Source: Thiovibrio frasassiensis (lineage in GTDB: Bacteria; Desulfobacterota; Desulfobulbia; Desulfobulbales; Desulfurivibrionaceae). From it: a stretch of 64,000 nucleotides of DNA. A program made the translations under genes and the position numbers. Under the pieces are notes generated by a model, which saw only the letters and a list, made by a program, of their open reading frames with translations, was not told the origin of the DNA and ran no database searches. Below are positions 43,858 through 53,209 of the stretch, piece after piece (the first letter of the stretch is position 1; each line of letters opens with the position of its first letter). Location of the stretch: assembly GCF_029607905.1 (NCBI RefSeq), contig NZ_JAPHEH010000001.1, forward strand, positions 401,530 to 465,529, in the 5' to 3' direction.

Positions 43858-43877
43858 CACCACTAGAGGATACAACA

Positions 43878-45251
43878 ATGCTCTTACGACATACACCCAC
43901 AGAGATTACAGAGCGCACGGCCCTGACCATTAATCCGGCCAAGACCTGTCAGCCCATCGGCGCCATGTATGCGGCTCTCGGCATCCACGGATGCCTGCCG
44001 CACAGCCATGGCTCCCAGGGTTGCTGCGCGTATCACCGCTCCGCCCTGACCCGGCATTACAAGGAGCCGGTCTCCGCCTCCACCAGCTCTTTTACCGAAG
44101 GTGCCTCGGTTTTCGGCGGCCAGGCCAATATGCTCCAGGCCATCAACAACATCTTCACCGTCTATAACCCCGAGGTGATAGCGATCCACACCACCTGCCT
44201 CTCCGAGACCATCGGCGACGATCTGCCCCAGATCAAGAAAAAGGCGGTCGCGGAAGGAAAGGTTCCCGAGGGCAGGTATTTGATCAGCGCCTCCACCCCG
44301 AGCTACGCGGGATCGCACGTCACCGGTTTTTCCAACATGGTCAAGGCCATGGCCGGGATGGCGGAGCCAACCGGGAAAAAAAACGGCAAGGTCAACATCA
44401 TCCCCGGCTGGGTGGAGCCTGCCGACATGGAGGAGATCAAGCGGATCACCGGAATGATCGGGGTGAAAACCATCCTTTTCCCGGACACCTCCGGCGTGCT
44501 CAACGGCCCGCTCTCCGGCGAGTACAAGATGTTTCCCGACGGCGGCACCACCGTGGCCGAGTTGAAGTCCACCGGGGACTCCAAGGGAACCCTGGCTCTG
44601 GGAGAATGGTGTTCCGCCGATGCGGCCCGTGAACTCGACAAGCAGCACAAGGTTCCCTGCAGCGTCTTGGACATGCCCTTTGGCCTTATGGCCACAGACC
44701 GGTTCATCGATGCCCTGCGGACCATCGCCGGGGTGTCCATCCCCGATGTGATTGTCAATGAACGCGGCCAGCTGGTGGACATGATTTCGGACATGCACCA
44801 GTATCTCTACGGCAAAAAGGTGGCCCTGGTCGGCGACCCGGATCAGCTCATCGCCATGACCGAGTTTCTGGTCTCCATGGATATGAAGCCGATCCATATC
44901 GTCACCGGTACCCCGGGCAAGAAGTTTGAAAAGCGGATCAAGGAACTCACCAAGGAGATGGGGCGTGAGGTCAACGTCAAGGCCAAAGGGGATATGTTCC
45001 TGCTCCATCAGTGGATCAAGAACGAGCCGGTGGACCTGATCATCGGCAATACCTACTGCAAGTATATCGCCCGGGACGAGGACATTCCCTACGTGCGTTG
45101 GGGTTTCCCCATTCTGGATCGGCAGGGGCATCAGTACTTCCCCACCGTGGGCTACAAAGGCGGCCTCAGGCTGCTGGAAAAGATCCTCGGTGTGTTGCTC
45201 GATCGTAAAGACCGGGATGATTCCGAGTCGAAGTTCGAGCTGGTGCTTTAG
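43878..45251 (+). CDS. nifK: Nitrogenase MoFe protein beta chain
   Basis: 457 aa, the short form without the N-terminal extension of Azotobacter NifK, as in anaerobes. P-cluster Cys lie in AKTCQPIGAM, GCLPHSHGSQGC and HTTCLSETIGDD. The conserved Ser of the P-cluster region lies in SASTSSFTEG. The start at 43878 is set by AGAGGA 9 nt upstream; the longer frame from 43800 reads through repeat DNA. Partner of NifD in the heterotetramer. Confidence 0.97.
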   Translation: MLLRHTPTEITERTALTINPAKTCQPIGAMYAALGIHGCLPHSHGSQGCCAYHRSALTRHYKEPVSASTSSFTEGASVFGGQANMLQAINNIFTVYNPEVIAIHTTCLSETIGDDLPQIKKKAVAEGKVPEGRYLISASTPSYAGSHVTGFSNMVKAMAGMAEPTGKKNGKVNIIPGWVEPADMEEIKRITGMIGVKTILFPDTSGVLNGPLSGEYKMFPDGGTTVAELKSTGDSKGTLALGEWCSADAARELDKQHKVPCSVLDMPFGLMATDRFIDALRTIAGVSIPDVIVNERGQLVDMISDMHQYLYGKKVALVGDPDQLIAMTEFLVSMDMKPIHIVTGTPGKKFEKRIKELTKEMGREVNVKAKGDMFLLHQWIKNEPVDLIIGNTYCKYIARDEDIPYVRWGFPILDRQGHQYFPTVGYKGGLRLLEKILGVLLDRKDRDDSESKFELVL

Positions 45252-45368
45252 TTCCGACAAAATTGGGGCCAGATTCCAAATCTCTCCCCATCCTGAAGAG
45301 AGTACAACTGGCGGTGGCGGGGGAAGTGATTCCCCCGCCGCTCCTTGCGCATTACGCCGGAGGCCGGG

Positions 45369-46514
45369 ATGACCATTATTCATTTACCCAAGACCAAACA
45401 AGGGTGCGGCACCAAGATTCCCCAGCGGCTTATCCTGCCGGTGGCCCCTCAGGCGGCAGCCCGGATCCGTTTCTGCGGTGAGGATCCCCTGCCCCAGGCG
45501 GTGCCCCTCCGGGGAGCGCTTACCTGGATTGCGGATTTGCTGGGTCAGGGAAGCGATCTTGCCGGGTTGGACCTCCATGGTCCGGGGGACCCTCTGGCCA
45601 CCGTGACCATGACCCGGGACATCCTGGCCATGCTGCGGGAGCACTATCCTGATTTGCCCCTGGGCATTACCACCCTGGGGCTGGGGTTGGCCGAGCATGC
45701 CGGAGTGTTGGCCGAGCAGGGTGTTTCCAGGGTTACCCTGCTGCTGGATGCGGTTACCCCGCAGACCATCAAGAAAATCTACACCTGGATCCGGCCGGGC
45801 AAACGGAATACCCCCCTGGCGGAAGCGGCGGAGATCCTGATCGAATCGCAAGCCAAGGGAATCTCGGCCTGCAAGGCGGCAGGCATTGCGGTCTCTATCC
45901 AGACTACGGTGTATGGCGGGATCAATGAAGAGGAAATTGAAGAAATTGCCCGCCAGGCTTCCGGTCTCGGCGCAGACTCCATCAGCCTGCTGCCCGGGAA
46001 GGGATGGCTGAACAAGGAAGAGAAACTGCCCCTGCCCTCAGAAGAGACGATGGCGGCTCTGGCACAGAAGGCGGGCCAGCACCTCTCGGTTGTCTGCCTG
46101 CCGGAGCAAGCGCTCCAGGGCGAGGGTATCCCCTCGGCAGACGCAGGAGTCCTGTCCGTGCCCAAGCCGACCACGGCCAGACCCAATGTGGCCGTGCTCA
46201 GCGCCAACGGCATGGATATCGATCTCCATCTCGGGCAAGCCATCAAGGCGCTGATCTATGGGCCGAGGGAAGACGGCCTCCCCTGTCTGCTCGGGACCCG
46301 GGATCTCCCAGAGCCCGGCAGTGGTGACAACCGCTGGCAGCAGGTGGCGGAAATTTTAAACGATTGTTTTGTGCTTATGGCCGCCAGCGCGGGACAAAAG
46401 CCGCGGGATATTTTATCAAGCCACGGCCTGAGCGTACTTTTGCTGGAGGACAATGTCGAGGGCACGGTGGATGTGCTCTACGGCGGCGGCAAGAAAGGAA
46501 AAAACAGGAAGTAG
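45369..46514 (+). CDS. NifB-like protein lacking the radical SAM cysteines, fused to a NifX-like domain
   Basis: 381 aa. Residues about 15-250 align by eye with NifB: ILPVAPQAAARIRFCGED replaces NifB's LPVAPNCNIKCNYCDRK, then GPGDPLA, DAVTPQTIKKIYTWIRPGK and GINEEEIEEIA. The CX3CX2C cluster loop is lost (Ala-Ala-Ala-Arg-Ile-Arg-Phe-Cys), and the later Cys that hold the K clusters are missing. The C-terminal 110 residues form a NifX/NafY-like cofactor-binding domain (LSANGMDIDLHLGQA). It cannot cleave SAM in the normal way, so a carrier, scaffold or regulatory role is inferred. GGAGG 5 nt upstream. Lies between nifK and the ferredoxin gene. Confidence 0.8.
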   Translation: MTIIHLPKTKQGCGTKIPQRLILPVAPQAAARIRFCGEDPLPQAVPLRGALTWIADLLGQGSDLAGLDLHGPGDPLATVTMTRDILAMLREHYPDLPLGITTLGLGLAEHAGVLAEQGVSRVTLLLDAVTPQTIKKIYTWIRPGKRNTPLAEAAEILIESQAKGISACKAAGIAVSIQTTVYGGINEEEIEEIARQASGLGADSISLLPGKGWLNKEEKLPLPSEETMAALAQKAGQHLSVVCLPEQALQGEGIPSADAGVLSVPKPTTARPNVAVLSANGMDIDLHLGQAIKALIYGPREDGLPCLLGTRDLPEPGSGDNRWQQVAEILNDCFVLMAASAGQKPRDILSSHGLSVLLLEDNVEGTVDVLYGGGKKGKNRK

Positions 46515-46540: not shown

Positions 46541-46846
46541 ATGGCCATACCAGCGCGTCAGATCATCGTTTGCCAGAGTTTCCGGGTCGCCGGCGACAAG
46601 AAGGGCATTTGCCACAAGCAGACCGAAGGGTTTCTGCAATACATCGAAGAAGAGGTGCTCGATCGGGGGCTGGACTGCCTGATCAGCGCCACCACCTGCC
46701 TCAAGCAATGCGACTCCGGGCCCATCATGGTGATTCAGCCGGAGAACTGGTGGTTCAAGGGGGTGGACAGCGAAGAGGCCATCGACGCGATCCTGGACGG
46801 CCTTGAGGATGGCGAGCCTCCTGCCAAGTACCTGATTACCGCATAG
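46541..46846 (+). CDS. Thioredoxin-like [2Fe-2S] ferredoxin
   Basis: 101 aa. Four Cys fit the thioredoxin-like ferredoxin pattern: Cys11 (IIVCQSF), Cys24 (KGICHKQ), and the CX3C pair TTCLKQCDSGP. The end has MVIQPENWWFKGVDSEEA, typical of this family near nif genes, including the clostridial and Azotobacter FeSII-like group. It may donate electrons to nitrogenase or its cofactor enzymes, or protect them. GAGGAG lies upstream of the start; the longer frame from 46364 overlaps the NifB-like gene. Confidence 0.85.
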   Translation: MAIPARQIIVCQSFRVAGDKKGICHKQTEGFLQYIEEEVLDRGLDCLISATTCLKQCDSGPIMVIQPENWWFKGVDSEEAIDAILDGLEDGEPPAKYLITA

Positions 46847-47091: not shown

Positions 47092-47391
47092 ATGGGTCTC
47101 AAACCGCTGGGAAAGGTCAAAACCATAGTCGAGGCGGCGGGGATGGGTATCTCCTATGCCTATGATGATCTGGTCTTTCTGGAGCACAACTCCTTTTTGC
47201 TCCAGTTCACCGACAACGACCATGAGATCATGATCCACGTGAACAGCGAGGCGGACGAGGCCACGGTGCACGGCGATATAGAGAGACTGCAGGAGGTTGC
47301 TCGCAACCAGGCCATGCAATTCAGCCGCGGAACGCACTACACCTTGATCCCGGCGGGAGAGGATGCCATCCGCATCGAGTTCAGTGGCTAG
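47092..47391 (+). CDS. Small nif-operon protein of unknown function
   Basis: 99 aa from the ATG at 47092, which has GGGGGGAG 9 nt upstream; an ATG at 47041 overlaps the zinc-ribbon stop (ATGA) and would give 116. Alpha/beta composition, no Cys, no membrane segment. Segments such as MGISYAYDDLVFLEHNSFLL and EIMIHVNSEADE do not match a family I know. It lies 14 bp before the GNAT gene. Confidence 0.6.
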   Translation: MGLKPLGKVKTIVEAAGMGISYAYDDLVFLEHNSFLLQFTDNDHEIMIHVNSEADEATVHGDIERLQEVARNQAMQFSRGTHYTLIPAGEDAIRIEFSG

Positions 47392-47405
47392 GTCGGGAGG
47401 GTTAC

Positions 47406-47855
47406 ATGACACAAGCAGTGATACGACCCGCCAACCCTGGTGATCTTGACGCCCTGGTGGATCTGCTCCGCATGCTTTTTGGTATCGAAACGGACTTTGA
47501 TTTTGCTGCAGCCCGGCAGCGTCGGGGGCTGGCAATGCTTTTGGCCCATGAGACAGCGGTTATTTTGGTCGCCGAGACAGCGGGACAGGTCATTGGTATG
47601 TGTTCCGGGCAACTGACCATCTCCACGGCAGAGGGGGGATTTTCTTTGTTGGTGGAGGATATGGTGGTTGCCGAACCATGGCAAGGGAGGGGGATAGGAC
47701 GAGAATTGCTGACAACCCTGGAGCAATGGGCTGCAAGCAGAAAGGTCGGGCGGTTGCAGCTTCTGGCCGACCGGAACAATACCGCGGCTCTGGAGTTTTA
47801 CCGCAAGCTCGGTTGGCAGCCCACCGAGCTTATCTGCCAACGCAGACGACTATAA
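47406..47855 (+). CDS. GNAT-family N-acetyltransferase
   Basis: 149 aa. GNAT fold: RPANPGDLDALVDLLRML, VAETAGQVIGMCSGQL, MVVAEPWQGRGIGRELLTTL (the Q/RxxGxG/A acetyl-CoA loop) and LLADRNNTAALEFYRKLGW. Acetylates a small molecule or a protein; the target is unknown. GGGAGG lies 6 nt upstream. Sits inside the nif operon, so the acceptor may be a Nif-linked protein or peptide such as the Nif11 peptide two genes on, which is speculation. Confidence 0.85.
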   Translation: MTQAVIRPANPGDLDALVDLLRMLFGIETDFDFAAARQRRGLAMLLAHETAVILVAETAGQVIGMCSGQLTISTAEGGFSLLVEDMVVAEPWQGRGIGRELLTTLEQWAASRKVGRLQLLADRNNTAALEFYRKLGWQPTELICQRRRL

Positions 47856-47872
47856 CCCGAGGAGGGAGAAGC

Positions 47873-48322
47873 ATGGCGGAATCAGGGAAAGTTGTTACCC
47901 TGGCAGGGTTTCCCGAGGTCAAAAGCGAACCCATCAAGGGATGGCAAGAGTTTCTCCAGGAGGGCAATCAGTTTCTGGCCACGGCCAACAATGCCTATAC
48001 GCAACGGCGAAAACCGTTCACCACCGAGATTCTTTACAATCTGGTGGCCATGGCCGTTGAAAAACTGATCATGGCCTTGCTCATGAAAAGCGGCAAGCTG
48101 CCGTATAACCACACCATGCACGATCTGGTGGAGTCTGTTGATGAGTTTCTACCCGGCGAACTGGCGGGTCTGGGGACAGACCTTAAGGCCTGGGATGGAT
48201 TTCAGGATATCTGCGATATAGAGAGCTACTCCATCACTCCCCCGACCATGGGGCAGATAGGCGGCATGCTCAAACTTGCCTTGGAAGTTCAGTCGCGAAT
48301 TATGACCTCTGTTATTAATTGA
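47873..48322 (+). CDS. Helical HEPN-like protein, nif-associated
   Basis: 149 aa, helical. The segment YNLVAMAVEKLIMALLMKSG followed by HTMHDLVESV recalls the non-catalytic HEPN bundle (A-E-K-A pattern, then a His-containing helix). No RX4-6H motif, so it is probably not a nuclease. GAGGAGGGAG lies just upstream. The role next to nitrogenase genes is unknown. The longer frame from 47600 overlaps the GNAT gene and is not used. Confidence 0.6.
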   Translation: MAESGKVVTLAGFPEVKSEPIKGWQEFLQEGNQFLATANNAYTQRRKPFTTEILYNLVAMAVEKLIMALLMKSGKLPYNHTMHDLVESVDEFLPGELAGLGTDLKAWDGFQDICDIESYSITPPTMGQIGGMLKLALEVQSRIMTSVIN

Positions 48323-48344: not shown

Positions 48345-48566
48345 ATGGCGAGAAAAGATGTAGAGGCATTGCTGATTGCCGGCGGCGGAGACAAACATGT
48401 CCGGGCCAAATATGATGTCCCTGGTACCCGAGAGGAGTTTGTCGCTCTGGCCGCGGAAGACGGCTATCATTTCACCGTTGAGGAGCTTGATGTGGTGCTG
48501 AAAGAGTCAGGCGATGTCTTTGAAAAAAACGGCAACCCGGCCAAGCGCCAGATCTGGTGGGTGTGA
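48345..48566 (+). CDS. Nif11-family small protein
   Basis: 73 aa. The Nif11 pattern is clear: GTREEFVALAAEDGYHFTVE followed by EELDVVLKESGD. Nif11 proteins occur as small nif-operon proteins and as leader parts of ribosomally made peptides. Here there is no GG cleavage site and no Cys/Ser/Thr-rich core; it ends in RQIWWV. A free-standing Nif11 role is therefore likelier than a natural-product precursor. AAGGAG lies upstream. Last gene before the terminator. Confidence 0.8.
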   Translation: MARKDVEALLIAGGGDKHVRAKYDVPGTREEFVALAAEDGYHFTVEELDVVLKESGDVFEKNGNPAKRQIWWV

Positions 48567-51934: not shown

Positions 51935-53209
51935 ATGAGCGAGATCCACAAAGACCTGAACAAACATCCCTGCTTTAATCCGGCCATGAAAGGACAGGCC
52001 GGGCGCGTCCATCTGCCGGTGGCGCCCAACTGCAATATCAAATGCAATTACTGCGACCGCAAGTACGACTGCGTCAACGAGTCGCGGCCCGGGGTGACCA
52101 GCACCATCCTGACCCCCGAGCAGGCCCTGGTCTACATGGGCAAGGTTCTTGAGAAGGAGCCGCGCATCACCGTGGCCGGCATTGCCGGACCCGGCGATCC
52201 ATTTGCCAATGCGGAAGCGACCATGGAAACCATGCGGCTGATCAATAAAAATTACCCGCAGATGATCCTCTGTCTGGCCAGCAACGGCTTGGCCATCGGT
52301 CCCTATATCCCGGAGTTGGCGGAGCTCAACGTCTCCCACGTGACCGTCACCATCAATGCCGTCGATCCGGAGGTGGGCGCCAAGATTTACGGCTGGGTAC
52401 GCGACGGCAAGGTTGCCTATCAAGGGAGGCAAGCGGCGGAACTGCTGCTCTCCCGCCAGCTGGAGGCGGTCAAATCCCTGAAGGCCCACGGCATCACAGT
52501 GAAGATCAACTCTATCCTGATCCCGGGGATCAATGACCGGCATATCCTCAAGGTCGCGGAAACCATGCGGGAATTGGGGGCGGATCTCTTCAACTGCATG
52601 GCCATGTTCCCCAATGTGGGCACTCCCTTTGGCACAATCCGCGAGCCGTCCAAGGAGGAGGTCGGCGCGATGCGCACCGAGGCGGAGAAGTTCCTGCCCC
52701 AGATGCGCCACTGCACCCGCTGCCGGGCCGACGCGGTGGGTCTGCTCGATCAGGATCGGACCGAGGAGATGCGCGGCTGTCTGTCGGCCTGCGCCCAGCT
52801 CCCTGCCCTGCCGCCGGAAATCCGACCCTATGTGGCCGTGGCCACCATGGAGGGGGTGCTGGTCAATCAGCATCTTGGCGAGGCCAATCGCTTCCAGATC
52901 TACGAGCGCAAGGGAGATGAGTATCTGCTGGTGGAAGAGCGGCCCGCGCCCAAGGTGAGCGGCGGCCTGCAGCGCTGGACCTCGCTGGCCCGGGCCTTGA
53001 ACGATTGCCGGGCGGTTCTGGTGAGCAACGTGGGCGAGACGCCCCGCGGGATTCTTGAAAAAGCCGGGGTAAAGCCGGTGGAAATGGGCGGCTTTATTGT
53101 GGATGGGGTGAAGGCGATCTACGAAGGCACCAATGTCGCGCCCCTGCAAAAACGAAAGAAGTCATGCGCCTCCGGCGGGTGTGTCGGCTCGGGCGGCGGG
53201 TGCTCTTAA
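51935..53209 (+). CDS. nifB: FeMo-cofactor biosynthesis radical SAM protein NifB
   Basis: 424 aa. HLPVAPNCNIKCNYCDRKYDC holds the CX3CX2C SAM-cluster loop (about residues 33-40). GIAGPGDPFAN follows. Cys of the K1/K2 cluster sites are seen in RHCTRCRADAVG. The C-terminal NifX-like domain covers about residues 290-405 and ends in a Cys-rich tail (CASGGCVGSGGGCS). It makes the 8Fe-9S-C precursor of FeMo-cofactor. AGGGAG precedes the start. Intact, in contrast to the NifB-like gene at 45369. Confidence 0.97.
   Translation: MSEIHKDLNKHPCFNPAMKGQAGRVHLPVAPNCNIKCNYCDRKYDCVNESRPGVTSTILTPEQALVYMGKVLEKEPRITVAGIAGPGDPFANAEATMETMRLINKNYPQMILCLASNGLAIGPYIPELAELNVSHVTVTINAVDPEVGAKIYGWVRDGKVAYQGRQAAELLLSRQLEAVKSLKAHGITVKINSILIPGINDRHILKVAETMRELGADLFNCMAMFPNVGTPFGTIREPSKEEVGAMRTEAEKFLPQMRHCTRCRADAVGLLDQDRTEEMRGCLSACAQLPALPPEIRPYVAVATMEGVLVNQHLGEANRFQIYERKGDEYLLVEERPAPKVSGGLQRWTSLARALNDCRAVLVSNVGETPRGILEKAGVKPVEMGGFIVDGVKAIYEGTNVAPLQKRKKSCASGGCVGSGGGCS

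Follow-up and report, generated by a model that had tools for sequence, protein, structure and literature searches.

The window analyzed here, a stretch of 64,000 nucleotides from the Thiovibrio frasassiensis contig NZ_JAPHEH010000001.1, harbors a nif cluster in the order nifH-nifI1-nifI2-nifD-nifK-PNB-[2Fe-2S] ferredoxin gene-gene for an unknown 99-aa protein-GNAT-HEPN-like-Nif11-nifE-nifN-nifB. PNB (pseudo-NifB) is the name coined in this study for the family represented by the open reading frame (ORF) at positions 45369–46514 of the forward strand, which was delimited by ORF reading and comparison with its orthologues. By direct reading, its ATG start codon lies at 45369 and its stop codon at 46512–46514, and a GGAGG ribosome-binding site is located at 45359–45363 on the same strand, so that the good ribosome site and the intact frame of 381 aa claimed in the original prediction were both recovered. 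According to the neighbor survey, nifK (43875–45251) is located directly upstream and a [2Fe-2S] ferredoxin gene (46541–46846; NF041612, 53 bits) directly downstream, while an intact nifB featuring CNIKCNYC and HCTRC follows at 51935–53209 (TIGR01290, 402.5 bits), all of them being encoded on the forward strand. ORF reading, Pfam, and NCBIfam confirmed that the gene between nifK and the ferredoxin gene represents a NifB paralogue; apart from the intact NifB, this genome encodes no other paralogue of this kind.

PNB shares the two-domain order of NifB. Residues 19–243 (45423–46097, forward strand) constitute a radical-SAM-type barrel with the NifB fold devoid of its cluster ligands, as deduced from the AlphaFold2 model and VIA-align, and residues 268–376 (46170–46496, forward strand) form a NifX/NafY-like cofactor domain, which was recognized by Pfam, profile, structure, and alignment and is the best-conserved part of PNB. 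At residues 28–36 (45450–45476, forward strand; direct reading and alignment), the degenerate radical-SAM loop QAAARIRFC occupies the position of NCNIKCNYC in the intact NifB, just as had been reported for the CX3CX2C loop, and reading of the window protein sequence revealed no HCxxC, in agreement with the proposed loss of the C-terminal RHCTRC site. As a remnant of the radical-SAM core, the GPGDP motif (NifB: AGPGDP) is kept at 45579–45593 (forward strand; alignment); WxR and PGIN motifs are also shared with NifB. In the tail, the His287 codon (46227–46229, forward strand; DLHLG) aligns with H311 of NifB and falls within the HFG-type motif to which H121 of NafY and H35 of NifX belong, for which a ligand role was described (PMC8496260, PMC13128457). 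The Cys333 codon (46365–46367, forward strand; DCF) is invariant in the family (72/72) and common to NifB (28/29). The alignment furthermore revealed a basic C-terminal tail (46491–46511, forward strand), represented by KGKNRK in the window PNB and GGGKKGK in the family.

The Radical_SAM model of Pfam matched residues 81–196 of the window protein with 30.9 bits, just above the cut-off, and Nitro_FeMo-Co (PF02579) matched residues 281–364 with 20 bits, which is under the cut-off of 26.3 passed by most relatives. The NifB model TIGR01290 (NCBIfam) matched all 30 family members tested, but the window PNB scored 111 bits and thus stayed far under the cut-off of 343.65. For the NifX model TIGR02663, no match was obtained for the window PNB at E-values up to 10, nor for any of the 30 members at 0.001, and PHROGs returned no match for PNB. 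The identity to the NifB of the same genome amounts to approximately 31%. The claim that the gene follows NifB over its whole length is slightly overstated, as this identity spans residues 48–373 and the ExRP segment of NifB is deleted.

Functional NifB was previously defined by six fingerprint motifs (Arragain et al., 2017; PMC5715403), and the ligands of its three clusters were assigned in PMC6053413. To describe their fate, 72 non-redundant PNBs were aligned with 29 NifBs. Within CX3CX2C, the first and the second cysteine were found in none of the 72 PNBs and the third in 16 of them, no PNB having two or more of these residues, whereas each was present in 29/29 NifBs. The HPC motif is likewise missing, with the histidine in 2/72 and a cysteine at the aligned N-terminal position in 39/72 PNBs; 71 of the 72 PNBs, that of the window included, have lost the ExRP segment; and in CX2CRxDAxG, the CxxC near the barrel end, the first cysteine is absent throughout (0/72) and the second was detected in 4/72. 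The TxTxN motif is not preserved either, its second T being L in 50 and its N being D in 58 of the 72 sequences. Regarding AGPG, the GPG is kept in 71–72/72 PNBs and the alanine is replaced in most, the residues of GPGDP being retained in 72 (G), 71 (P), 71 (G), and 70 (D) sequences; Asn186 occurs in 71/72. Among the cysteine and histidine residues conserved in NifB, only the tail histidine (72/72 PNBs, as HLG or HMG; 29/29 NifBs) and the cysteine of the tail DC (72/72) are invariant in PNB. Because the radical-SAM cluster ligands and nearly all K-cluster ligands are missing, PNB is, judged by its residues, unable to carry out NifB chemistry.

Structure prediction was in line with this relationship to NifB. 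The AlphaFold2 model of PNB reached a mean pLDDT of 76.5, with high values in the barrel, and its best match was NifB (7jma; Z 28.8, rmsd 1.7 over 213 residues, VIA-align), followed by radical-SAM proteins at Z values of approximately 18. A sequence profile of PNB matched NifB structures at an E-value of about 1e-38. Barrel fold and sequence homology place PNB in the NifB superfamily by descent. When modelled alone, the tail was predicted with moderate confidence (mean pLDDT 69.7); its best match in the PDB was NifX in the NifEN-NifX complex (9ian_F), with the NafY core (1p90) on rank 5, these matches being weak (best E-value 0.007). By sequence profile, the NafY core 1p90 was matched at 4e-4. 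The loop carrying the histidine was poorly modelled (pLDDT <50 at residues 281–283 and 285–290). Together with the weak Nitro_FeMo-Co match and the invariant histidine, the NafY core profile match bears out the proposal that a NifX-like cofactor domain was kept.

Concerning the distribution of the family, profile searches identified full-length PNBs in 142 out of 159 NifB-type-positive genomes of the window’s order, with orthologues present in the window’s family, while the remaining 17 genomes encode only a NifB, a fragment, or a tail-only copy. Beyond the order, the profile search recovered PNB from three other families within the phylum (f29, f54, and f91). The scan of GTDB contigs was performed with the window protein as the only query and reaches close relatives only, the profile having been applied within the phylum; it yielded 37 named loci with PNB, nearly all originating from deltaproteobacterial/Desulfobulbaceae-type MAGs, with Desulfopila aestuarii and Desulfogranum japonicum among the isolates. 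In the phylogenetic tree, a single branch (SH-aLRT 100) separates all PNBs from NifB, with the caveat that some branches are long. Every ORF scoring higher for PNB than for NifB is without both motifs, and full-length ORFs scoring higher for NifB have them; the few deviating cases are contig-end fragments or a frame that is split. On this basis, the possibility that live and dead copies are mixed at the PNB position was rejected. A candidate PNB on a plasmid of Nitratidesulfovibrio vulgaris was also dismissed, as it represents the sole NifB of that nif cluster and its cysteines are intact. In strain RCH1 (L142, 11971–13452; plasmid pDEVAL01), this nifB, the only one found on the cluster, appeared as a two-piece match and carries no annotation other than that of a short NifX-like gene, unlike in strains L2 and DP4, where the same nifB is whole.

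Comparison with 11 close orthologues revealed dN/dS values of 0.14–0.25 for the whole PNB gene, 0.13–0.26 for the barrel, and 0.06–0.14 for the tail. The mean pairwise identity of PNBs amounts to 40% in the barrel and 62% in the tail, and the tail is the more identical part in 99.9% of all PNB pairs; for NifB, the corresponding values are 66% and 59%. As the ranking of barrel and tail is reversed between both families, the strongest selection has shifted away from the barrel, the catalytic part of NifB, and now acts on the NifX-like domain. A sequencing error in the loop, which might have undermined the original prediction, was ruled out because the first two loop cysteines are missing in every orthologue, and the same observation together with the dN/dS values speaks against recent decay; a chance local loss of the motifs is excluded. 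No orthologue keeping the radical-SAM cysteines at the same operon position occurred among the 72 non-redundant sequences, and the notion of a conserved dead paralogue under selection has therefore held. PNB constitutes its own clade beside the two-domain NifB and is subject to purifying selection among nif genes. A genome of the same genus (G010) features a 144-aa ORF (L022, 1435–1869) between nifK and the ferredoxin gene, which has an N-terminus of the PNB kind (MQIIPFPK) and the NifX-like tail but no barrel; among the PNBs listed for the order, no other copy is barrel-less. It has kept the histidine and the DC but lost some otherwise invariant tail residues, and originates from one MAG; it is thus supporting evidence, but no proof, that the tail is important.

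In all 72 fetched loci, nifK is located directly 5' of PNB, and the ferredoxin gene lies directly 3' in each of the 69 loci that are not cut off by a contig edge. In three complete genomes (G082, G083, and G156), nifB is encoded far from nifHDK, and PNB is still found behind nifK. An invariable position behind nifK, although valid for the 72 fetched loci, had to be rejected, because it is broken in genomes of genus g27 with scattered nif genes. There, PNB is unlinked from nifK in four genomes (G104 and G108; G109 and G110 by position) and still heads the series ferredoxin-GNAT-HEPN-Nif11. In G104 and G108 (L162, L163, L160, and L161), nifDK, nifE, nifN, and nifB are dispersed along the chromosome rather than clustered, and PNB and the ferredoxin gene remain together. 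In summary of these loci, the position of PNB is independent of nifB and in most cases directly behind nifK, and PNB stays with the ferredoxin gene wherever visible. The related genome G002 and the plasmid cluster of N. vulgaris feature nifK followed by the ferredoxin gene without PNB, indicating that PNB is not required by every nitrogenase of this kind. The region downstream of the ferredoxin gene (47092–48322), encoding the 99-aa protein without family match, the GNAT acetyltransferase, and the HEPN-like protein, is found in this place in the majority of PNB loci, including those with nifHDK at another site. The adjacent Nif11-type (leader-peptide-like) protein of 73 aa (48345–48566) is 94–97% identical among the closest relatives and thus more conserved than PNB.

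Regarding the function of PNB, a catalytically dead NifB paralogue acting as a metallocluster escort in nitrogenase assembly is the reading preferred here, and we give it about an even chance of being correct. In this process, the NifX-like domain would bind NifB-co or FeMo-co through His287, and the cluster-free barrel would serve as a docking or prop module, comparable to the N-terminal domain of NafY for apo-NifDK, before the cluster is handed on to a partner. As the target, the apo-NifDK end (NafY/NifY-like) is preferred over NifEN because PNB usually sits behind nifK, this being the least certain step. That PNB binds a cluster, to which partner it docks, and in which direction it delivers are inferences. 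NifX H35 was reported to hold an apical iron of NifB-co during transfer to NifEN, and the C-terminal helix of NifX contacts a positive patch in binding NifE (PMC13128457); FeMo-co is held in NafY chiefly by H121 of the HFG motif, and the N-terminal domain of NafY binds apo-NifDK (PMC8496260); and both NafY and NifY co-purify with MoFe protein lacking FeMo-co (PMC6016461). Of the roles originally proposed, namely cofactor carrier, NifB-interacting scaffold, or regulator, the carrier is favored because the tail histidine is invariant, the tail is the most conserved part, and one relative has retained only the tail. A scaffold bound to NifB is less favored, since PNB stays with nifK and the ferredoxin gene, or with the latter, where nifB has moved. 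Several observations count against an escort of this kind: His287 and Cys333 are common to NifB, and their conservation may be inherited; the histidine loop is poorly modelled and the structural matches of the tail are weak; PNB does not substitute for a nif-linked NifX; PNB has a basic C-terminus where NifX carries its NifE-binding helix; PNB and nifK are unlinked in the four g27 genomes; the barrel-less copy, known from one MAG, lacks some tail residues that are invariant elsewhere; and certain nif genomes, such as G002, manage without PNB.

PNB was compared with its closest known counterparts. From NifB, it differs not only in the missing motifs and the separate clade, but also in conserving the tail rather than the barrel. 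NafY of Azotobacter vinelandii, which binds apo-NifDK and escorts FeMo-co, resembles PNB in combining a C-terminal cofactor domain of the NafY-core type, including the ligand histidine, with a separate N-terminal module; however, this module is all-helical in NafY (PMC8496260), whereas that of PNB is a dead radical-SAM barrel, for which NifDK binding is putative. NifX, the escort of NifB-co to NifEN, shares the fold of the cofactor domain and the histidine, but is small, stand-alone, and equipped with the NifE-binding C-terminal helix, whereas PNB possesses the added barrel and the basic C-terminus. NifEN represents a dead NifDK paralogue turned scaffold. PNB would have followed the same evolutionary route, with an enzyme paralogue being reused in cofactor assembly, although both proteins are unrelated and the duplicated core of NifEN still binds clusters, which the PNB barrel cannot do by the same ligands.

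The cofactor domain of PNB would also fit a NifX-like carrier or store conveying NifB-co from NifB to NifEN without acting on NifDK. Not only is the NifX of the NifEN-NifX complex the best PDB match of the tail, but the barrel, being homologous to NifB, might have retained a surface directed towards NifB or NifEN, and 21 out of 24 PNB genomes lack a recognizable nif-linked stand-alone NifX. Read from gene positions, a stand-alone NifX-like gene beside nifB occurs in 3/24 genomes with PNB, but also in just 1/24 nif genomes without PNB, so that PNB-free genomes mostly lack it too and there is no sign of a replacement; PNB as a substitute for nif-linked NifX was rejected, as PNB-plus and PNB-minus genomes are not complementary in this respect. 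Since PNB, moreover, is usually located behind nifK and does not accompany distant nifENB or nifB, and since the NifE-binding helix of NifX is not evident in it, we consider delivery to NifEN possible but rather improbable. A pseudoenzyme partner or regulator of NifB, acting as heterodimer, decoy, or SAM sensor via the retained SAM-type core, appears unlikely to us: the largely kept GPGDP and Asn186 are compatible with it, and the dN/dS of the barrel indicates that this domain is not mere ballast, but the barrel is the fast-evolving part, was dropped by one relative, and does not follow nifB in rearranged genomes. Binding of an Fe–S cluster by other ligands for a different reaction, for which the N-terminal cysteine aligned with that of HPC, Cys333, and the remaining loop cysteine might be considered, is very improbable, given that the family has no three conserved cysteines and that the first two radical-SAM cysteines are absent throughout. 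A decaying duplicate without function, to which the barrel-less copy and the relatives devoid of the gene might point, is already contradicted by the dN/dS values, the presence in 142 genomes of the order, the open frames, and the retention in scattered nif clusters, and can practically be discarded.

With the cofactor escort as the preferred reading, chances are balanced that PNB represents an undescribed class of assembly factor, namely a radical-SAM paralogue without clusters that would escort FeMo-co or NifB-co and dock by its dead barrel, occurring in Desulfobulbales that are diazotrophic and in part of the remaining Desulfobacterota, the majority of these carriers having no recognizable nif-linked NifX. 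We regard PNB as a new branch of pseudoenzymes within the NifB/NifX superfamily. In the open-access literature, to which the search was confined, no description of a conserved cysteine-less NifB was found. Likewise, no curated model naming the PNB family was found. The proteins handling NifB-co and FeMo-co between NifB, NifEN, and NifDK are still being worked out, the cited work dealing mostly with Azotobacter. If the proposed role is true, a phylum with many strict anaerobes would have arrived independently at a second design of escort. Pseudo-NifB would then exemplify how an enzyme can become a chaperone, and it might be employed as a component in the engineering of nitrogenase. Furthermore, homology-based annotation of nifB can capture a non-enzyme; Arragain et al. 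(2017) dropped 28% of the putative NifB sequences for missing motifs (PMC5715403).

Two further observations were made during the survey. In family f54, the NifB-type match at L155 (4445–5584) is part of a 938-aa frame starting at approximately 2834, representing a NifN-NifB fusion with intact radical-SAM cysteines, an architecture first described from Clostridia (PMC5715403). Finally, strong intercistronic hairpins of varying sequence were detected in most relatives, both in the nifK-PNB gap (window positions 45316–45339; mean z -3.1) and in the nifD-nifK gap (mean z -3.2). A hairpin specific to PNB was therefore rejected, as those of the nifD-nifK gap are equally strong, and their occurrence suggests a control of mRNA processing or stability along the operon.
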